Shown piece by piece: positions 12,204 through 22,184 of a DNA stretch of 35,227 nt. Positions within the stretch are counted from its first letter, which is position 1. Every line of letters begins with the position of its first letter. The notes below the pieces were generated by a model that was given only the letters and a program-made list of their open reading frames with translations, had not been told where the DNA came from and did no database searches. The stretch comes from a virus: positions 1 to 35,227 of the IMG/VR virus record IMGVR_UViG_3300024518_002645; one strand, written 5' to 3'. A program made the translations under genes and the position numbers.

Positions 12204-12513
12204 GAAGCAGGTCCTTGCAGACGGGAAGATAAAGGAGCTACAGCAGCAGGTCGCCGACTATCGGGCCTCTGAGCATGAGCGCATCGCCAAGGTGCGCGAG
12301 GAGATGGCTGAAGTACGGGCGGAGATTAACAAGCTGAAGGGCAAGCTGTCCCACAAGAAAAGGCAAACCCTTATCAAGAAGGGTCCGATCCGGACATTGG
12401 AACGACGCATCCGCACCAGGCGCAATGCGATCTTTAACGCCGAGGAGAACAAGGAGTGGAAGGCGTACTCAGCAATGTTCAGGGCAAAGAAGAATAAAAT
12501 ATTGAGGATATGA
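12175..12513 (+). CDS. Coiled-coil protein, 112 aa
   Basis: Overlaps the previous gene by 29 bases and the recombinase by four. Residues about 5-75 are a highly charged helix with heptad-like spacing (KIKELQQQVADYRASEHERI, EVRAEINKLKGKL), and the C-terminal part is basic. It is either a small structural or a regulatory partner. No family recognised; a recombination accessory role is suggested only by its position. Confidence 0.6.
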   Translation: MPETREELLEKQVLADGKIKELQQQVADYRASEHERIAKVREEMAEVRAEINKLKGKLSHKKRQTLIKKGPIRTLERRIRTRRNAIFNAEENKEWKAYSAMFRAKKNKILRI

Positions 12514-13406
12514 CAGGAAAACAAATACAACAATCGCGCCGCTCAGGCGCATATCGGGGTGCCGTATTAACAACCGCACCGCTCATCACCACAGCCGTAG
12601 ACAAGTGGAGCACTTGGCTCAAGGGCATTGGAAGGTCAGAGAGAACCGTGGAGACCAGCACCAGCAACGTGTGGAGGTTCGTTCATGGACTGCCAGCCTT
12701 CGGGGTTGGCAAGGCAACAGTAGACAAGATAACCGAGGGCCACATCAGCCAGCACGTCAACAACCTTGACTCGGACATGAAGTACTCGTCCCGCAAGGTT
12801 ATCCTCTCATCCATACGCAGCCTGTTCTACTACTGCGTGGCGGAGGGGTGGGTGTTGCGCGACCCGTCCATGCTGGTCGAGGTCAACCTCAACGCCCTCA
12901 CCCATCAGCAGAAGGAAATTGTTTCACGTGGAACATTCACCCTTGAGGAGTATCGCAAGGTGTACCGTGAGGCGGACGGGTTCTGGAAATATGCCATTGC
13001 CCTTGCCTACTACGCCGGCCTACGTCTCTCGGACATTGCCCAGCTTGAGTGGGGCTCGTTGGCTGAGGACAATGCGGTGATCGTCTGGACCCGCAAGGGA
13101 CGCAAGCGGGTACACGTTCCCATCAACGCCACCTTAACCCGCCTGTTGAAGAAGATCCCGAAGTCTGATGCACGCTGGGTGTTTCCGAAGCAGGCAGAGA
13201 TCATGCAGGCAGTAAGCCGCCGAGCCCTCCTGTCCACCCAATTCAGGCGCATCTGTGACAAGGCCGGAGTGAAGGGCCGTGTGTTTCATGAGCTGCGTCA
13301 TACCTATGCCACCAACATGCGCAAGAAGGGAAAGACGATTCCGCATATTGCCAATTTACTGGGACATGCTAACCTTTCGACCACGCAGATTTATACTGAC
13401 CACTGA
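12510..13406 (+). CDS. int: Tyrosine recombinase / integrase
   Basis: A 298-residue, apparently intact tyrosine recombinase. The N-terminal SAM-like core-binding domain spans about 25-125. The catalytic domain shows AYYAGLRLSD (Arg172), a beta-hairpin Lys in RKGRKR (about 196), HELRHTYATNM (His260, Arg263), LLGHANLSTTQ (His286) and Tyr295 in QIYTDH, that is, the full R-K-H-R-H-Y set, ending three residues after the nucleophile. It starts in an ATGA overlap and its stop shares one base with the terminase small subunit start. It catalyses site-specific recombination, most likely phage integration. No excisionase or repressor gene was recognised nearby. Confidence 0.9.
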   Translation: MTGKQIQQSRRSGAYRGAVLTTAPLITTAVDKWSTWLKGIGRSERTVETSTSNVWRFVHGLPAFGVGKATVDKITEGHISQHVNNLDSDMKYSSRKVILSSIRSLFYYCVAEGWVLRDPSMLVEVNLNALTHQQKEIVSRGTFTLEEYRKVYREADGFWKYAIALAYYAGLRLSDIAQLEWGSLAEDNAVIVWTRKGRKRVHVPINATLTRLLKKIPKSDARWVFPKQAEIMQAVSRRALLSTQFRRICDKAGVKGRVFHELRHTYATNMRKKGKTIPHIANLLGHANLSTTQIYTDH

Positions 13407-14074
13407 TGCCAGCCGCAGCCAGAACAACCGTAGCCGAGGTAAAGGCCGCCCTGACCAGGGCAGGTTCTATAGCCGGAGCTGCCGAGTTGCTTGGCTGCCG
13501 TGAGGCTTCGCTGGCAAAGAGGATCAAGACGAGCCCCACGCTCACCAAGTTCATGAAGCCTCAGGAGGAGGCGGATACGCTGCATCGACCGAGCGGAGAG
13601 CTCACTGTCTTTGCTGAAAAAAAGGCAATCGCCAAGGCCATGGATGCGGAGGATGCCGCACTCAGGAACGGGCTTGAATCCATTGGGCTCTCAGGTCCAG
13701 CTCTCAAGGAGGCCATCGCCCTCCAGGCTTTTCACAACACCCAGTTCCAGAAGTCCTATGAGATGATCGGGGGCGGAATTACAAAAATGTTTTTTGAGCT
13801 CAAGGCCGAGGTGGTCTCGATCAATGATCGGCTGGGCGAGGGGAGCATGGACATAGAGGAGGAGAACATGCTGCGCGTCGATCGGTCCAGGCTGCTGGAC
13901 CAGATTGGCAAAACCTATGACCGTTCCCTGAAGGCAGCCATGACGCAGGCCGTTATCAATCACCGTCTGTCCGAGAAGACACAGCAGGGGCCAACTACCA
14001 AGCCCGGCTTCAAGCCCATCACCAACCTCATTGCCATCAAAGCTGACGGGAACATATCCGTGGAAGGCCAGTGA
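13406..14074 (+). CDS. terS: Terminase small subunit (probable)
   Basis: A 222-residue protein placed directly before the large terminase, with a helix-turn-helix-like N-terminus at about 21-41 (SIAGAAELLGCREASLAKRI), a helical middle and a basic C-terminal tail. This layout fits small terminase subunits, which bind the packaging site and feed DNA to the motor. There is no SD; the start is TGATG-linked to the recombinase stop, so it probably depends on reinitiation. Assignment rests mainly on position and architecture. Confidence 0.7.
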   Translation: MPAAARTTVAEVKAALTRAGSIAGAAELLGCREASLAKRIKTSPTLTKFMKPQEEADTLHRPSGELTVFAEKKAIAKAMDAEDAALRNGLESIGLSGPALKEAIALQAFHNTQFQKSYEMIGGGITKMFFELKAEVVSINDRLGEGSMDIEEENMLRVDRSRLLDQIGKTYDRSLKAAMTQAVINHRLSEKTQQGPTTKPGFKPITNLIAIKADGNISVEGQ

Positions 14075-15591
14075 AGAATCCCATCAACGAGATTGATGCC
14101 ATTGCCGAGGCGATGCTGTCCGAGTCTGAACCCGAGGCTCCCCCCGCTCCCTCGGAGGCTGGTGACTGGCACCCCAACCTGAACGAGACGCAGAAGACAA
14201 TCTTCGATGACCCCGCCCCGTTCCTTCTTGCCTACGGGGAGAAAGGCTCGGGCAAGACCGTGGGCCTGCTCTATAAGCTGGTCCGGCATTGTTATGAGAA
14301 CAAGAATGCCCTTGCCCTCATTGTCTCCCCCAGCATTCGTACCGGCAAGGAGGGCGTCCTCTTTGACCTGGAGAACCTCGTGCTTCCTGACTGGGAGAGA
14401 GGGATAGGTCTCCACCACACCTCCGCCAAGCTCGACCCGAACACCAAGGATCGCCACCTTTGGATTGCAAACATTCATGGTGGCTGGTCCAAGGTCCTGC
14501 TGGTTTCCATCCCCTTCGCCGAGGCCGTGGAGCCTCGCATCAAGGCGCTGTCGCCGTCCATGGTTTATGTGGATGAGCTGACCGAGTGTAAGGGCCGTAA
14601 CTACTTCACTTATGTGGCCGCCCAGCTCGGCCGTCGCCGGGATATTGACGGCCCGCAACAATACACCGCCTCCTGCAACCCTGAAGGGCCCAGCCACTGG
14701 GTCTACAAGGTGTTCATGGAGGAACCGCTGGACGAGGAGACCGGCGAGAGGGATAAGGACTTTTCGGTTCATCACGTTCCCATCAAGGAGAACGCAAAGA
14801 ATCTTCCCGAGCGGTACCTTGTACAGCTGGAACAGGTACTTAAGAGCGACCCTATCGAGTACCGCCGCCTGATACATGGCGAATGGGTTGACCGGCCCAC
14901 CGGTGAATCCCTCTTCCACGAATACTACATGCCCAGCATCCACCTCAAGGGCGACAAGGTTAAGGGAACCGGCATCCATCCGGTTCCGGGGAGCCCCATT
15001 ATAATCGGATACGACCTTGGTCAGGTCAACTCCTCAGTAACCTTCATGCAGGTGATCCCCACCCTGGATGGGAACATCTGGCTGGTGTTCGACGAGATTG
15101 ACCACATCAACGAGAAGATCCTCTATAAGCGCCTGGCCCAGGAGATCACCAATCGTATGGATTACTGGATTGATCTCAAGGATTACCCCTTCAAATTCCA
15201 GCACATCTCTGACTCCAGTGCTGTCAACCAGTGGCACCCCGGCGGTCAGGGCTCCTATGATTCATGGGACATGGAGCGCTACTCTGATGGGCGCATCAAG
15301 ATGATCGGCTGTCCCAAAGGCAAGGGGTCCGTCGAGGCCAGGGTGCGCCTACTAACCGCCAAGCTCTTCCAGGATGAGGTGTACATTTCGGCTTTGTGCG
15401 TTAACACCACCGAAATGCTGCTCCATCTCGAGTCAGATGCCAAGGCCCCAATGAAACCAAAGCGGTCGAAATGGGTTCACAAATTTGATTCATTGACATA
15501 TCCTCTATTGAAGTTAGAACTAAACGGAAACATATCGGCCCTGAACTCCGAGGTGCACCAGGCTCGACTGGTTCATTGCGGCACAGGTTAA
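14071..15591 (+). CDS. terL: Terminase large subunit
   Basis: A 506-residue packaging motor beginning with GTG inside the previous gene, behind GGAAGG. The ATPase domain shows Walker A YGEKGSGKT (55-63) and Walker B MVYVDE (164-169), followed by SCNPEGPSHW, a coupling-type motif. The C-terminal nuclease domain starts near IIGYDLGQVNSS (Asp315), with another acidic site at ISDSSAVNQW (Asp381). It would cut concatemeric DNA and drive it into the procapsid through the portal encoded downstream. Confidence 0.93.
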   Translation: MKNPINEIDAIAEAMLSESEPEAPPAPSEAGDWHPNLNETQKTIFDDPAPFLLAYGEKGSGKTVGLLYKLVRHCYENKNALALIVSPSIRTGKEGVLFDLENLVLPDWERGIGLHHTSAKLDPNTKDRHLWIANIHGGWSKVLLVSIPFAEAVEPRIKALSPSMVYVDELTECKGRNYFTYVAAQLGRRRDIDGPQQYTASCNPEGPSHWVYKVFMEEPLDEETGERDKDFSVHHVPIKENAKNLPERYLVQLEQVLKSDPIEYRRLIHGEWVDRPTGESLFHEYYMPSIHLKGDKVKGTGIHPVPGSPIIIGYDLGQVNSSVTFMQVIPTLDGNIWLVFDEIDHINEKILYKRLAQEITNRMDYWIDLKDYPFKFQHISDSSAVNQWHPGGQGSYDSWDMERYSDGRIKMIGCPKGKGSVEARVRLLTAKLFQDEVYISALCVNTTEMLLHLESDAKAPMKPKRSKWVHKFDSLTYPLLKLELNGNISALNSEVHQARLVHCGTG

Positions 15592-15604
15592 TACATTAAA
15601 TATC

Positions 15605-15898
15605 ATGGCACAGACAAGTACAGGCAAGGATAAGCTGGTGTTGGACCTGACTTATGACGATGAGCTGCGTGACTACATGCAGTCCAAGGAGGTGGGCGAC
15701 AAGTGCCTGCTGGAAATCAACGCCTCGCTTGACGAGGTGACCAACGACCAGGCGGTGCTATCCGTGGACGAGACGACTGTCATCGCCCGGTACGGCATGG
15801 AAAAAAAAATGGAATCCGAAGGTCCGGGAGACGAGATGCCGCCGGCAGCGGCAATACTCCTGACCGTGGGCAAGAAGAAAAAGGGAGGCGCATATTAA
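15605..15898 (+). CDS. Hypothetical protein, 97 aa
   Basis: A small acidic protein between terminase and portal with no SD (an A/T-rich TTAAATAT lies just upstream). A run of nine A at 15801-15809 falls within it (codons GAA AAA AAA ATG). It ends in KKKKGGAY, encoded by A-rich codons followed by an SD-like GGGAGG. An HTH-encoding frame in -1 phase follows without its own usual start, so this gene may donate its 5' part to a frameshift product. Confidence 0.65.
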   Translation: MAQTSTGKDKLVLDLTYDDELRDYMQSKEVGDKCLLEINASLDEVTNDQAVLSVDETTVIARYGMEKKMESEGPGDEMPPAAAILLTVGKKKKGGAY

Positions 15899-16161
15899 GG
15901 GACGCTGACCCAAGGCTGGAGACATACTACCGCACCCTTGGGGTCCATGACTGGGACTCTGAGCGGTTTAGAAACCTCTGCAAGTTGGCCAAGCGTACGC
16001 CACAGGAACTCTGCGACATGTTCTGTATATCAAGAGCACATGCAAACCGATGGTTAAAGGCAGATCACTTCCCGCCCTTCATAGGGTTGCACCTATCCAA
16101 CTTTGAAGCATTCATCACACAAAACCCAATACCTATCGTAAACCCAAGCCATGCCAGTTGA
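15892..16161 (+). CDS. HTH protein without ordinary start codon
   Basis: An open frame of about 89 codons fills the gap before the portal and ends 11 bases inside the portal gene. It reads ILRDADPRLETYYRTLGVHD and later a helix-turn-helix-like stretch, TPQELCDMFCISRAHANRWL, followed by HLSNFEAFI. The codon choice and gap-filling position argue that it is coding. No ATG, GTG or TTG lies near its apparent beginning; the first in-frame candidate is TTG inside the protein, and the frame stays open far back into the 97-aa gene. Coordinates give the earliest plausible codon (ATA). It may be made by -1 frameshifting at GAAAAAG (15877-15883) or by non-canonical initiation. Confidence 0.55.
   Translation: MLRDADPRLETYYRTLGVHDWDSERFRNLCKLAKRTPQELCDMFCISRAHANRWLKADHFPPFIGLHLSNFEAFITQNPIPIVNPSHAS
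15909..15942 (+). other. Stem-loop downstream of possible slip site
   Basis: CCCAAGG (15909-15915) pairs perfectly with CCTTGGG (15936-15942) around a 20-base loop. It lies about 25 bases after the A-rich stretch at 15877-15883, further than in well-known -1 frameshift sites. It may stimulate frameshifting or simply reflect codon choice. Confidence 0.35.
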
Positions 16162-18517
16162 CTTCGACATCCTCAAGGAGGCAGGCACAACCAATGAAAG
16201 GTTGCGCCAGTTCTTCACCACCCGTTCCACCGACGAAGAAGACGCTGTTGGCGAGGAAAAGAAACGCATCAAGATCGACCTCCAAAAGCTGGAGACAGTG
16301 CAGGACATGATAGGTTCACGCATGAACGAGCACATCATGTTCTCGCTCAAGAACCACCACCTGTACTCGTCGGTGGACCTGGCGTGGGATAGTGCCCCCA
16401 TCAACAAGTCTACCATCCCGCTCATTATGTATGCGCAGAAGCGCATCAACGTGAGCGACTGCGCTAGTGAGCTTGAGAATCTGGGCTGCTCCCATGGTTA
16501 CGTCAAGCGGGACGAGTCCGGCAAGATCATGGATGTCGACCTGCCCAAGTTCTTTGAGACCAACATCAACCTGGTCCGCTCCCTTATCACCCGCCGACTT
16601 GCTGCACAGTCAAACAAGTACGTCAACCTCTGGCCCTTCTTCAAGTACGAGTCCCGCACCACCGGGATGGCCGGTAAGCTACGGGCCGATGTTCTCTCCC
16701 AACGTATGGACATCATGGCCGACCAGTACAACTACCGGCACTTCCAAACCCAGGCTATGAGGGACATGTTCCTGTATGGTCACTGTGTTGCCTTCCCCAG
16801 GGCTGCCTGGGAGCGTGATGTCCAGTGGGAAAAAGAACCGGCAGCCATTGACTTTAAGCCGTCTAACAAGACTAAGATTCCCAAGCGCAGTCGCGTGGTC
16901 AAGGAGGGGGTCTGCTGGGTGAACCCACATCCATCCCGTGTCTTCTGGGATAATGCCTACCCGCTCACCAGCCTCAACAGCGATACCGGCTGCGAGTATG
17001 TCGGGTTCTGGGACGTGGTACGGTTTGGGGAAATTTCCCACAATCCCACTTATTTCAATCGGGACAAGGTCGGGTTCTCCTCAGCTTCGCTGAACTATTT
17101 CTCCCAGTTCTCCTCATACTTTAACCAGTACTACACTGTCATCAACCCGCCCACCCCCAACTCCGGTGACCTGTCCAGCCACAATGACCTCAAGAATAAT
17201 CTTGGCCGGTACAGTGGCGAGGAGGAGGACACCAGTGTAATGGTAGGCGAGTTCTACTGGAAGATGATCCCCAAGGAGTGGGGCATTGGCAGTTACCCGT
17301 TCCCACTATGGGTGCACCTGAAGGTAGCCGGGGACGATACCGTGATATTCGCCGAGATCATGCCCTCGAGCCCGGCGGCGGTGTTCAGTTACAACGAGTC
17401 TGACTCACGGCTGGCCAACATATCAATAGCCCATGAGCTCATGAGCTACCAGGATCAGCTGACCAACCTGTTCAGCCAGATGCTCGAAACCGCTAAGGCG
17501 GACCTGTTCTCCGTAGGTGTCCTTAACACCGACGTTTTCCCGGACAGCGATGAAGGCAAGCAGGTCCTGGCAGACTTCCGTGCCACCATGGAAGGCAAGA
17601 ACTTCTATGCCAACACCCATGTCCTGGAGGCATCCTTCAGACGCTTGCAGGAAATGGGGGTAGCCAATCCCGCCGAGGTGTTCACCATAGTCAGGTCCTC
17701 CCCTAGCACCGGATTGCAGGCAATCTTCGCCGCTATCACCCAGCTTCTCAACATGTCCGAGCGACTCATGGCCCTCTCCCCCCAGGAGCAGGGGCAGCCT
17801 GCCCCACGGGAGATTAGTGCCACCGAGGTTAATGTCATTAGCGGCACCACTGAATCAGTCTATTCCTTTATCTCCGATGCCATTGACGAGGGCCGCTCAG
17901 TCATGAAGCGCATTTGTTATGAGTCCCTCATCTCACAGGGGGCCGACACAGTGCTCCTCCCGGTTGTCAGCCGATACCCGAGGGAAGCTGTGGAGGACGC
18001 CGGGTTCACCATCATAGATGAGTCCCAGGAAGAGAAGATGGACGTGAATCGTCACACCGTCATGGGCAGCAAGTACAAGCTGGTGCATGACTACATCTTC
18101 AACAGCCGTGACGGTTCGGAGCGCACCTCTAATATCCAGGCTGCCAACACCCTGGTCGCCTTATTCCAGGGCATCGTGGCCCAGCCCATGATTTCCCAGG
18201 CCATAGGCAAGCGCCAGCTGTTCGAGCTGGTCAATGAGATCTTCCGCCTCAGCAACACCGGCACCCACCTGAAGCTGGAGATGGACGGCATTGAGGAAGG
18301 GCTCATGCCTGAGGAGGGCGAGGCTGCCACTGACCAGATTCAGGCCAACGCCGACGCCATCGGCCAGCTGCAACAGATTATTTCGATGCTTACCGGCGGA
18401 GGTCCCGGAGGTCCAGGAGGTCCTGGTCCCGGAGCCCCACAAGGGCCCGCAGCACCACCGCCCCAGGCACCGCCACCACAACCACAACAACCACCACAAC
18501 CACAACCCACTAGATAG
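16151..18517 (+). CDS. Portal protein
   Basis: A 788-residue protein placed between terminase and the scaffold/capsid genes, the size of podovirus-type head-to-tail connectors. The N-terminus is helical; phrases such as QTQAMRDMFLYGHCVAFPRA (about 197-216) and YQDQLTNLFSQMLETAKADL fit the portal clip and wing. The last 45 or so residues are low complexity (GGGPGGPGGPG, then Pro/Gln/Ala), encoded by a CCA- and CAA-rich tract. There is no SD; the start overlaps the end of the HTH frame. It would form the dodecameric ring through which DNA enters. Confidence 0.8.
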   Translation: MPVDFDILKEAGTTNERLRQFFTTRSTDEEDAVGEEKKRIKIDLQKLETVQDMIGSRMNEHIMFSLKNHHLYSSVDLAWDSAPINKSTIPLIMYAQKRINVSDCASELENLGCSHGYVKRDESGKIMDVDLPKFFETNINLVRSLITRRLAAQSNKYVNLWPFFKYESRTTGMAGKLRADVLSQRMDIMADQYNYRHFQTQAMRDMFLYGHCVAFPRAAWERDVQWEKEPAAIDFKPSNKTKIPKRSRVVKEGVCWVNPHPSRVFWDNAYPLTSLNSDTGCEYVGFWDVVRFGEISHNPTYFNRDKVGFSSASLNYFSQFSSYFNQYYTVINPPTPNSGDLSSHNDLKNNLGRYSGEEEDTSVMVGEFYWKMIPKEWGIGSYPFPLWVHLKVAGDDTVIFAEIMPSSPAAVFSYNESDSRLANISIAHELMSYQDQLTNLFSQMLETAKADLFSVGVLNTDVFPDSDEGKQVLADFRATMEGKNFYANTHVLEASFRRLQEMGVANPAEVFTIVRSSPSTGLQAIFAAITQLLNMSERLMALSPQEQGQPAPREISATEVNVISGTTESVYSFISDAIDEGRSVMKRICYESLISQGADTVLLPVVSRYPREAVEDAGFTIIDESQEEKMDVNRHTVMGSKYKLVHDYIFNSRDGSERTSNIQAANTLVALFQGIVAQPMISQAIGKRQLFELVNEIFRLSNTGTHLKLEMDGIEEGLMPEEGEAATDQIQANADAIGQLQQIISMLTGGGPGGPGGPGPGAPQGPAAPPPQAPPPQPQQPPQPQPTR
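18390..18514 (+). repeat. Low-complexity Gly-Pro then Pro-Gln tract in portal gene
   Basis: The 3' end of the portal gene codes for repeated GGP units, then Ala/Pro/Gln runs, from short imperfect repeats such as GGAGGTCC and CCACAA. Such tails are unusual on portals and vary easily by slippage. The tract stops just before the scaffold-like gene. Confidence 0.7.
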
Positions 18518-18519
18518 TC

Positions 18520-19914
18520 ATGGCAGAAGAAACCACCATTGAAGAAGCTCCCGCAACACGGGAGGTCACAGAAGCCCCTGAGCCCCAGGAACTCGTAGCC
18601 CCCAAGGAGGACCCCCTCCTTCAGGCCCTATGGAAGGACCTTGGGCGGGTAGAGAATGTTGTTGAGGAGGACATAACCCCGGCACCGGACGCAGAGGCAA
18701 CTACTGAGGAGAAGTTACCACTACCCCATGCTGACGAGATGCCCGCCGCCGAAGATGAGGACCGGAGCAAGGTTTCCCTGCGCCACCAGCCCATGCTTAC
18801 CGAGGATGGGGTGAGAGATATAGTCCGTGAGGAAGTGTCTGAGGTTCAGCCCACCGAGAGCGTCACCGAGCCTGTCGATGAGGAGCCCGACCCGGAGGCT
18901 GGTCTGCTTGAGGAACAGAAGGAAGAGATCGAGCTGGCCAGGCTGGCAGAAAAGAACTACCCCGACAAGTACCAGGGGTTGCCGGACAAGCTGCTCTCCT
19001 ATTACACAAAGCTGGAGGAGTACGCCAAGGAGTCTATGGAAGAGGACCCAAGCCGGTCCTTTGACGACGACGACATGGAGTACCAGGACTGGGTCCAGCG
19101 CAATCGTCCTAAATTTTCAGACCGGGACCGCAAACGGGTGGAGCGCGTTCTCATTGAGAACAATGCCTATGAGCGGGCCAAGGAGGAGGTCACGAACCAA
19201 TACTCTGAGCTGGAGAAGCGGCAGAAGGCTTTGGAAGTGAAGCCTAAAGTTGACTCGCAGATCAAGTCGTTCGAGGACTCCATCTTGAAAGCTAGTAGCA
19301 GCGATGCGGCAAAATCCATCATCAAGTCCGGATATGAATCCACTTCAGATTCGTACCCGTTGGAGACTGCCGTCCTCGAGGACACCGTAACCCGGGCCAA
19401 GCTGCTGGCTAACGAATACCTTGGCTTCGTTCATGGGCTAAAAGAGTTCGACTACAACGACCCGAACCACAAGTGGTTGCTGGAGTTCATCAACAACAAT
19501 GGCGAATGGTTCGAGAAGAACGGGGGTGACGCCAAGGACAAGGGCGGCAAGTCCTTTGTGAGTCGCGCCCGATACGCCGAGCTCCATGCAGCCGGCAAGG
19601 CAAGTACTCACTGGACCTTTGATCATGATGATATTCTTAATCTGCTCAGCACCAATGCATTGCACGAGGCTGACTTCAAGATCAAGTCCACCCTCGAAAC
19701 GGCCGAAAAATATGGGTTCACCAGGGTGGACACAAGTAATTCCGCATCCGAGCCGAACCAGCAGGAGCAAGTCCAGGAGGAAGAGCCGGACATCCAGCCG
19801 GTCTATCCGCCCAGGGCAAGCCCGTCGATAGGCCCAGGAACCGCTGATTCAGGCACCTCAGCCCAGGGACAACAGATGGGAACGGACGTGTTGAGTGCGC
19901 TGGGAATGAAGTAA
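18520..19914 (+). CDS. Scaffold-like acidic coiled-coil protein
   Basis: A 464-residue protein between portal and major capsid, the usual place of a scaffold. It is strongly acidic, with an N-terminal 120 residues of Glu/Pro/Ala low complexity, helical segments at about 125-165 and 195-245 (ERAKEEVTNQYSELEKRQKA) and a Pro/Ser/Gln-rich disordered end. It begins without an SD. It is expected to sit inside the procapsid and guide assembly. No protease-cleavage site is evident. An unrelated internal protein remains possible. Confidence 0.6.
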   Translation: MAEETTIEEAPATREVTEAPEPQELVAPKEDPLLQALWKDLGRVENVVEEDITPAPDAEATTEEKLPLPHADEMPAAEDEDRSKVSLRHQPMLTEDGVRDIVREEVSEVQPTESVTEPVDEEPDPEAGLLEEQKEEIELARLAEKNYPDKYQGLPDKLLSYYTKLEEYAKESMEEDPSRSFDDDDMEYQDWVQRNRPKFSDRDRKRVERVLIENNAYERAKEEVTNQYSELEKRQKALEVKPKVDSQIKSFEDSILKASSSDAAKSIIKSGYESTSDSYPLETAVLEDTVTRAKLLANEYLGFVHGLKEFDYNDPNHKWLLEFINNNGEWFEKNGGDAKDKGGKSFVSRARYAELHAAGKASTHWTFDHDDILNLLSTNALHEADFKIKSTLETAEKYGFTRVDTSNSASEPNQQEQVQEEEPDIQPVYPPRASPSIGPGTADSGTSAQGQQMGTDVLSALGMK

Positions 19915-19923
19915 CCTGTTTCC

Positions 19924-19976
19924 TACATGGAGCGGAATTTATTTTCCGCTCTTTTTTTTTCTTTTAATTCCATGTA
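19924..19976 (+). repeat. 8-bp inverted repeat enclosing the terminator
   Basis: TACATGGA (19924-19931) and TCCATGTA (19969-19976) are perfect reverse complements flanking the terminator hairpin and its T-run. Paired in RNA, they would enclose the terminator stem in a larger structure, which could serve in processing or in protecting the 3' end. Confidence 0.5.
19930..19960 (+). terminator. Intrinsic terminator between scaffold-like and capsid genes
   Basis: GAGCGGAA (19930-19937) and TTCCGCTC (19944-19951) form an 8-bp stem with a 6-base loop, followed by nine T. A very clear rho-independent terminator, placed immediately before the capsid gene, which implies separate transcription of the capsid or partial read-through. 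Confidence 0.9.
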
Positions 19977-20032: not shown

Positions 20033-21694
20033 ATGCCAACTACATTCCCAACTAACAACTGCGATCCACGGTTAATTCAAGTGGATGACTCGTGCGGCTG
20101 TACGCTCACTAGAGCAAGCATCCGTGCTTTCACACGTCAGGACTTCGAGGACCAACAGTTCAAAGAAGTCGGCATGGACCGGATCATTGCCCAGACTAAG
20201 GAGGCCCGCCTGGCGGGTGTTCGGGAGCGGACGCTTTCGGATTTGCTTCTTAGCCGTCACACGGCTCTCGGTGAGAGTAAGGGTGGCGGCAGTCAAAGCG
20301 TGATTGCACCCTTTACCCTCGTTCCGCGCCGGAACGTGGTGAATGCTAACTACTTCCAGATCGAGGCTGGTACCGGCACGACCACCGTAACCCACACATC
20401 CACGCATACTGGAGTATGGGAAGTGACGGTTAACACCGGATCATCCGCGTTCAAGAGCAACCTTACAAACATTGAGAAGCACTTCATTCCCGGCATGATC
20501 GTGAATGTTGAGTTCGTCGTCGGTGGCGGCGGTAATGCGGCGGGCACCGCTCAGTACAAGATCATTGCCGCAGCCAATGCTAACGCCGGTAGCGTTGAGA
20601 AGGCTAACGTGGTTCTGGAACCCAACGTCAGCGCCTCTGGCTGGTCTGCATTGTCTGCCGCGCAGCAGGGTGTATATCAACCCGGTGGCGGGACCTTGAT
20701 GATCCTGGCCAACTCGGTGAGCGACTACGAGTCCTACTGTCAGAATCCTCCATCGAGGAACGACCTTACCCTTCTGGAGTATTGGGCCCAAACCATGAGG
20801 TGGACCCATTGCTGGAATGATGAGTACGTCAAGGCCCTTGAGGCCCCGCTCACCAGCAACTTCCTCAAGAAGTTCCGGCTCCTTCCCCTCGCCCAGCAGC
20901 GTAAGCAGCAGGAGATGGCGATGGAGAATGCGTTCTACAACACTGTGTTCTACGGACAGGAGATCAACGAGAACCAGACCGTGGAGAGCTACCAAAGCCT
21001 TCCGCAGGTTATGGACCCGTCCGATACAGACTGCGCCCTGGAATTCAAGGCCAACACATTGGGTATTCGCTCGCAGCTTACTGCTTGTGGACGCGTATCT
21101 GATTCGGCGGGTGCGGCACTCAACCTCGATACGCTTCTGGAAACTGCTTATTCCCTGAAGCGCAATCGCGAGACAACCAGTGGTAACATTGAAATCGTTG
21201 ATGCGATGACCGACCGTTTCACGGCGGCCAAGATCCGCGATCTGATGATGAAATACTACCAAGACAAGTACAGCTCGGCCTCGACGCTGTTCTTCCAGCC
21301 CGGCAACAAGATCACCTTTAATGGTGCGACGGTTCTGGAGTACAACGTGTACGACTTGCCTGATCAAGGCGTTCAGCTCGCGGTGTTTACCGATCCGTTC
21401 TTTGACGACAAGCTGGCAGCGTTTGATACTGCCAACAAGAATCGTGCACGCTGTCTGTGGCTGATTGACTGGAGCGATGTCCAGATTAACGTGATCAAGA
21501 CCCGCTCCGTCAAGCGCCAGACCAACGTGGCTGACAACCTGTACAACTGTGTCATCCAGCCCAACGTAAACCACTATTCGCTCAACTCGAAAACTTTCGA
21601 GATGCGCATTGGTGATACAAACCGGCACGCCATGATTGAGAACTTCAGCGATGCTTGCCCAACGCTGACCTCGACCACTTGCGCCTTAGCCTAA
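20033..21694 (+). CDS. Major capsid protein
   Basis: A 553-residue protein right after the scaffold-like gene, with its own terminators on both sides. It is rich in Asn, Thr, Ala and aromatic residues. Segments such as LEAPLTSNFLKKFRLLPLAQ, AMENAFYNTVFYGQEINENQ (helical, spine-like) and KARDLMMKYY-type helices, then beta-rich parts near residues 410-520, fit an HK97-fold shell protein. Four cysteines lie near residues 10-23 and the C-terminus (NNCDP, SCGC, ACPTLTSTTC). There is no SD, surprising for an abundant protein. Assignment rests on position, size and isolation; the fold itself cannot be proven here. Confidence 0.75.
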   Translation: MPTTFPTNNCDPRLIQVDDSCGCTLTRASIRAFTRQDFEDQQFKEVGMDRIIAQTKEARLAGVRERTLSDLLLSRHTALGESKGGGSQSVIAPFTLVPRRNVVNANYFQIEAGTGTTTVTHTSTHTGVWEVTVNTGSSAFKSNLTNIEKHFIPGMIVNVEFVVGGGGNAAGTAQYKIIAAANANAGSVEKANVVLEPNVSASGWSALSAAQQGVYQPGGGTLMILANSVSDYESYCQNPPSRNDLTLLEYWAQTMRWTHCWNDEYVKALEAPLTSNFLKKFRLLPLAQQRKQQEMAMENAFYNTVFYGQEINENQTVESYQSLPQVMDPSDTDCALEFKANTLGIRSQLTACGRVSDSAGAALNLDTLLETAYSLKRNRETTSGNIEIVDAMTDRFTAAKIRDLMMKYYQDKYSSASTLFFQPGNKITFNGATVLEYNVYDLPDQGVQLAVFTDPFFDDKLAAFDTANKNRARCLWLIDWSDVQINVIKTRSVKRQTNVADNLYNCVIQPNVNHYSLNSKTFEMRIGDTNRHAMIENFSDACPTLTSTTCALA

Positions 21695-21785: not shown

Positions 21786-22184
21786 ATGCCAACAAAACAT
21801 TATCAGGTCCGGGGGAGCAACCGGACAATTCAATCCGAAGGAATCATCTTCCCATTTGAGCCATATCTTTTGGTTGGCGGGATGTGGTTTGGGCTGTACG
21901 CAACAGACGACAAGAAGGAGCAGAAGGCCCTCAAAAAACTTGACTGGCTCGTCAACCTCACCAAGGAGGAGTATGAGTCCGAGCTCAAAAAAAAACACCC
22001 GAGTACCAGAGATTACAATCCCTTGCAGCCCGCCAACATGCCGAAGCAAATCGCCCTACTGGGGGAGGGTGCGGAAGTTGTGCAAAGAGATCCTCAGGAG
22101 CTCTATGGTGATTCGGATGTTGGCCCGGAGCTCACCGTCGAGGACATAACGGCCCCGGCACCAGTGGAAATGAAACCTGAATAG
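21786..22184 (+). CDS. Hypothetical head-associated protein, 132 aa
   Basis: Lies directly after the capsid gene, starting 6 bases after the terminator T-run without an SD. The first half is beta-like with aromatic residues (GIIFPFEPYLLVGGMWFGLY), the second helical and acidic. No family recognised. A head completion or decoration role is inferred only from its place. Confidence 0.55.
   Translation: MPTKHYQVRGSNRTIQSEGIIFPFEPYLLVGGMWFGLYATDDKKEQKALKKLDWLVNLTKEEYESELKKKHPSTRDYNPLQPANMPKQIALLGEGAEVVQRDPQELYGDSDVGPELTVEDITAPAPVEMKPE

Follow-up and report, generated by a model that had tools for sequence, protein, structure and literature searches.

The window, a single virus contig of 35,227 bases (IMGVR_UViG_3300024518_002645), carries a 97-aa gene followed by a helix-turn-helix (HTH) reading frame, and we put the chance at about two in three that these are one gene recoded by a −1 shift, in which slippage at an A-run heptamer would yield a 185-aa fusion beside the 97-aa protein. 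The pair lies between the genes for the terminase and a presumed portal protein, in the window as in its relatives (Table 1). The portal call for the 788-aa gene is based on its position and on profile matches to portals of solved structure, which are very weak, and the stop of the HTH frame (16159-16161) overlaps the start of this gene. Two genes before the terminase lies an integrase-family gene (12510-13406; PHROG 1, E 9e-44); a temperate lifestyle is therefore possible.

Table 1 Coordinates of the proposed recoded gene, its candidate signals and its neighbours in the window.
Feature	Position	Strand	Remarks
Terminase large subunit	14071..15591	+	Upstream neighbour of the 97-aa gene, likewise in relatives
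97-aa upstream gene (zero frame)	15605..15898	+	Small folded domain and disordered C-terminal tail (predicted)
Nine-A run	15801..15809	+	Zero-frame codons GAA AAA AAA ATG; A9 also in L002 and L004
A_AAA_AAA slippery heptamer, favoured candidate −1 recoding site	15802..15808	+	In-frame; codons K67 and K68
Two-frame overlap	15808..15894	+	Zero frame, disordered tail; −1 frame, 29-aa Gly/Arg-rich linker of the putative fusion
A_AAG_GGA heptamer, alternative late slip site	15880..15886	+	Overlapped by GAAAAAG (15877-15883)
ATA TTA, sole non-canonical start candidates at the junction	15892..15897	+	GGAGG upstream at 15884-15888
HTH coding segment, −1 frame	15895..16161 (15895-16158 without stop)	+	Predicted five-helix domain, lambda-repressor/XRE-like arrangement
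7-bp stem-loop	15909..15942	+	Folds in the window
788-aa gene, presumed portal	16151..18517	+	Position and weak profile matches; outside the recoding

The HTH lies at the end of a frame that is open from 15733 to 16161, and ATG, GTG and TTG are absent from the opening of this frame until well inside the HTH domain. Its phase relative to the 97-aa gene is −1, and no stop separates the two back to beyond the nine-A run. These features had been noted in an earlier, sequence-only reading and held up, as did its description of the frame as coding-like, given that relatives keep the frame and that a fold is predicted for it. The relative L002 retains the HTH frame at 69% amino-acid identity (terminase 80%, portal 81%) and likewise lacks a start. 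The HTH frame is coding and conserved.

The AlphaFold2 model of the HTH segment (mean pLDDT 88) has five helices; helix 1 begins at residue 6, immediately after the point where the 97-aa gene stops. Its top structural matches were the small XRE/Cro-type HTH proteins HigA2 and Aca1 (VIA Z 7.0-7.9); moderate Z values are frequent for small helical domains, and this match shows only a common arrangement, and no sequence relationship of the HTH to either protein was detected. A candidate assignment to XRE/Cro-like HTH proteins has this fold resemblance (Z 7-8) behind it, with Pfam matches below the cut-off. Searches of IMG/VR and GenBank phages with the HTH protein alone returned no matches, and sequence searches of PHROGs, Pfam and the PDB gave no firm function for either the 97-aa protein or the HTH. 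An internal TTG or ATG as the HTH start was rejected, as its use would cost the domain its first conserved helices.

Indels arise easily in A runs, and one relative (L045) has a single-base deletion that fuses the two frames, as might be expected if the split came from gene decay or from an indel in sequencing. Two related contigs, however, have the A9 run and the phase unchanged, which makes a sequencing indel very unlikely, and both frames are conserved on either side of the run. We regard the probability of such an artefact as negligible. The fused frame of L045 (5485-6108) was set aside, since it differs by one deleted base from the near-identical L043 and is probably an assembly error.

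A codon-usage and phase analysis of homologous genomes, the check proposed by the sequence-only reading, was run; the slip codons proved to be AAA against a general AAG bias, and slip site and start codon proved nearly exclusive of each other. A heptamer of the X_XXY_YYZ type, A_AAA_AAA, is present in the zero frame inside the overlap of both frames; the close relatives share it, and other clades carry equivalents at a matching relative position. The genes of the window avoid AAA as a lysine codon (125 AAA versus 465 AAG), and both slip lysine codons are AAA in 3/3 phages of the window clade; as a control, only 1 of 41 conserved lysine columns in the portal and terminase is AAA in all three phages. 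The L102 clade has AAA at the two slip codons in 12/12 phages and at none of 30 control columns throughout. In −1-phase loci, the upstream gene has in-frame A_AAA_AA at 29 of 4,765 codon positions; in portal and terminase genes it occurs at 39 of 149,299, and the heptamer density is thus ~23 times higher in the upstream gene. Four in-frame A_AAA_AAN sites are found in the window, and solely at the A run does the −1 frame extend beyond the end of the gene that holds the site (117 aa). A second A9 run (21987-21995) also gives an in-frame A_AAA_AAA, in the ORF at 21786-22184; no fusion is implied there because the −1 frame closes at 22108, within the gene. A nine-T run was also observed (19952-19960), in the gap between the ORFs at 18520-19914 and 20033-21694.

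The extent of the −1 frame points the same way in several relatives. In L004, L085-L090 and most L102-type loci, a stop immediately before the A run closes this frame, which is open from the run onward, as expected if it were read only after the A run. Past the site, codons are more conserved in the L102 clade (column permutation p 0.012), with no such rise in a TTG-start control; for the small window clade, synonymous constraint past the site is a non-significant trend (p 0.20), and the chance of the −1 frame being open to its stop is 25-34% per locus. Taken together, these codon patterns indicate that the slip site is under selection.

Relatives were reached through terminase and portal queries, L002 first and then more than 200 further loci in larger scans; a scan of bacterial genomes added one phage-like MAG contig (L158). 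After removal of near-duplicates at 90%, 123 IMG/VR-derived junctions with homologues of both genes were available. The HTH frame is in +1 phase in 67 of these and in −1 phase in 51. Of the 67, 62 have a canonical start that precedes the upstream gene's stop or lies close to it, and one has an A_AAA_AAN heptamer. The −1-phase junctions comprise 19 with the heptamer only, 20 with a start only, 2 with both and 10 with neither (Fisher p 5e-5, a value inflated by relatedness, the independent-pairs test being without power). An earlier 48-locus set, placed on a portal tree, requires a minimum of four changes of the slip state and seven of the start state.

Where relatives have the HTH as a separate gene, it starts at an overlapping ATG or GTG, or at a TTG or GTG that overlaps the stop; the latter arrangement typifies the −1-phase group with starts (e.g., TATTGA; L101, L103, L110, L111 and L148). 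The start-less −1-phase group mostly has NTA at the overlap position (stop TAA or TAG), and in-frame A_AAA_AAA/G/C, placed in the upstream gene where the −1 frame is open, is found almost exclusively in this group. The NTGA start/stop overlap has been lost in 18/19 slip-type junctions, which end in TAG or TAA, whereas 16/20 start-type junctions end in TGA. By these comparisons, the window belongs to the slip-site group of the family. A premature TAA was noted in the 97-aa homologue of L099 (3437-3676), yet the rest of that frame is conserved to its TTG-overlapping stop.

The sequence-only reading had offered non-canonical initiation as an alternative to frameshifting. The HTH could be made alone by termination-reinitiation at the ATA (15892) or TTA (15895), both of which overlap the stop and might be aided by the GGAGG. 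The HTH fold begins right after the stop of the 97-aa gene, and homologues of other clades start at a TTG or GTG that overlaps the stop, both of which suit such a start. L002 and L004, however, have GTA in place of the window's ATA, and neither a start nor a near-cognate codon is present in L002 from −60 to +30; TTA, like CTA, is two mismatches away from ATG, and both are very weak starters. Reinitiation would also leave the retained AAA slip codons of the start-less members unexplained, and we consider it an unlikely source of the HTH in the window. It fares better elsewhere in the family, where some relatives without the heptamer, and with a blocking stop just upstream, offer near-cognates alone (CTG in L007, ATC/ATA in L124, ATT in L095 and L010). 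The alternative is thus weakened for the window and seems needed in some relatives that lack the slip site, and near-cognate initiation is likely in parts of the family (L007, L124 and L095), judging from their junctions.

Two further kinds of junction were observed. L010, L062, L094, L095 and L097 are in +1 phase and have no canonical start before the domain, their candidates being ATT (−2) and ATA (−8 and −41). On the MAG contig (L158:1744-2049), the HTH frame follows an upstream TAG in the same phase, with ATG, GTG and TTG absent near its start; readthrough and ATT initiation are candidates for its expression.

The position of a −1 shift was also considered. The sequence-only reading had offered such a shift as a possible way to join the two genes, which the comparison of relatives supports at the A run, and had favoured a late position, at GAAAAAG, which is less supported. 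GAAAAAG is not an X_XXY_YYZ site, though it contains A_AAG; a late shift would take place at the A_AAG_GGA that it overlaps, or at an A_AAG close to where the 97-aa gene ends. A heptamer of the X_XXY_YYZ kind does lie 16-28 nt ahead of the stop in each of the three close phages: the window has A_AAG_GGA, L002 has G_GGA_AAA and L004 has three kinds including A_AAA_AAG; late A-rich sites are present in L142, L143, L139 and L243. The kind and place of the late heptamer nevertheless differ among the three phages, in which the A9 site is identical, and the L085 and L102 clades possess only the early A-run site. As the biased AAA AAA codons would also be left unexplained, a late shift appears very unlikely.

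The 7-bp stem-loop that had been pointed out downstream of the junction does fold in the window (−12.8 kcal/mol), but it was rejected as a conserved element, since it does not fold in L002 (−3.2 kcal/mol) or L004 (−2.8 kcal/mol). No significant or conserved stimulatory structure was detected near the slip site in the window (z −0.6), and, hairpins in the L085 clade excepted, neither a conserved hairpin nor a Shine-Dalgarno-like element was found near the slip site.

Under the favoured reading, a −1 shift at the A run, the majority of ribosomes would read through to the 97-aa product. A fraction would slip back by one base at the A run, the likeliest route being a tandem shift of tRNA-Lys on A_AAA_AAA, and stay in the −1 frame to make a domain-linker-HTH fusion of ~185 aa. 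The outcome would be a DNA-binding-type version of the protein, in a set ratio to the short form. We infer the slippage itself, the ribosome rather than the polymerase as its agent, and the role of the fusion.

The same fusion would result from transcriptional slippage, in which extra or missing bases arise as the polymerase copies the A9 run and some of the mRNAs encode the fusion for ordinary translation; it is therefore a rival on mechanism only. Nine A's are kept in the window, L002 and L004, although GAA AAA AAG would be enough for a ribosomal heptamer, and most slip-type members have runs of eight or nine A's. Bacterial polymerases slip on runs of about nine A's (PMC5009743, PMC3711429). 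The runs of L142, L143 and L243 (six A's) and L147 (seven) suit the ribosome instead, and all four are in phase for A_AAA_AAG. Ribosomal slippage is favoured as the simplest common mechanism because of these four members, and we regard polymerase slippage as improbable. Against the proposal of a shift at the A run stand the ten −1-phase relatives that have neither start nor heptamer, and the lower shift-proneness of A_AAA_AAA in E. coli compared with A_AAA_AAG (PMC5009743).

The predicted layout of the two proteins is compatible with a junction at the A run. The AlphaFold2 model of the 97-aa protein, of moderate overall confidence (pLDDT 68), is ordered over residues ~5-62 and disordered from residue 63, and the folded domain is predicted to end just before the run, which encodes K67-K68. 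The disordered tail ends with Tyr and the stop, and relatives conserve the gene up to its own stop. A −1 shift at the heptamer would join residues 1-68 to the 29-aa linker and the 88-aa HTH, by which the folded domain would be kept and the tail replaced. The same design is found in the L102 and L085 clades, with basic linkers of 16-23 aa. In many of the loci L002-L277, the other frame of the stretch that encodes the upstream protein's acidic tail yields a Lys-/Arg-rich extension before the HTH.

Several known systems share parts of this arrangement. As in dnaX, where tau and gamma arise at A_AAA_AAG, the slippery run lies in lysine codons and two products with a common N-terminus are proposed; the dnaX shift leads to an early stop, whereas here it would lead to a longer HTH fusion, and the window differs in having no detected Shine-Dalgarno-like element or significant hairpin. 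The tail assembly chaperone genes G/GT of lambda and many tailed phages are likewise a late pair with a short product, a −1 fusion and a start-less downstream part. However, G/GT precedes the tape measure gene, while the pair described here lies between terminase and presumed portal and the added part is an HTH; unlike in G/GT, a genuine start codon is present in most relatives that lack the slip site. A G/GT identity was rejected, given the terminase/portal position and the lack of any match of the 97-aa gene or the HTH to PHROG tail families. IS3-family OrfA/OrfAB (A_AAA_AAG, A_AAG) similarly fuses overlapping −1-phase frames at an A-rich site, but there the upstream part binds DNA and a catalytic domain is what the fusion gains, whereas here the HTH is the added part. 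An additional frame is likewise opened by transcriptional slippage at A9 runs in Thermus dnaX and in type III genes of Shigella; compared with these, part of the family has only six or seven A's, which speaks for ribosomal slippage in those members.

The well-studied programmed frameshifts of tailed phages are mostly in tail chaperone genes. A literature search on frameshifting near terminase or portal genes found no matching case, and we know of no described recoding case for such a place and gene family. On balance, we favour the view that a widespread, uncultured tailed-phage lineage has an undescribed recoded gene in its packaging/head region, where slipping by −1 at an A run links a small domain to an HTH, and that the family has switched among frameshifting, start/stop-overlap reinitiation and perhaps near-cognate (CTG, ATT, ATA) initiation. 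If true, a conserved frameshift that adds a DNA-binding-type domain in the packaging/head region would be a new target of recoding, and a conserved phage gene would have been missed by gene callers that demand a start codon. The family would also supply natural replicates in which a slip site has been traded for a start codon, which would allow a direct comparison of what each strategy costs and yields.
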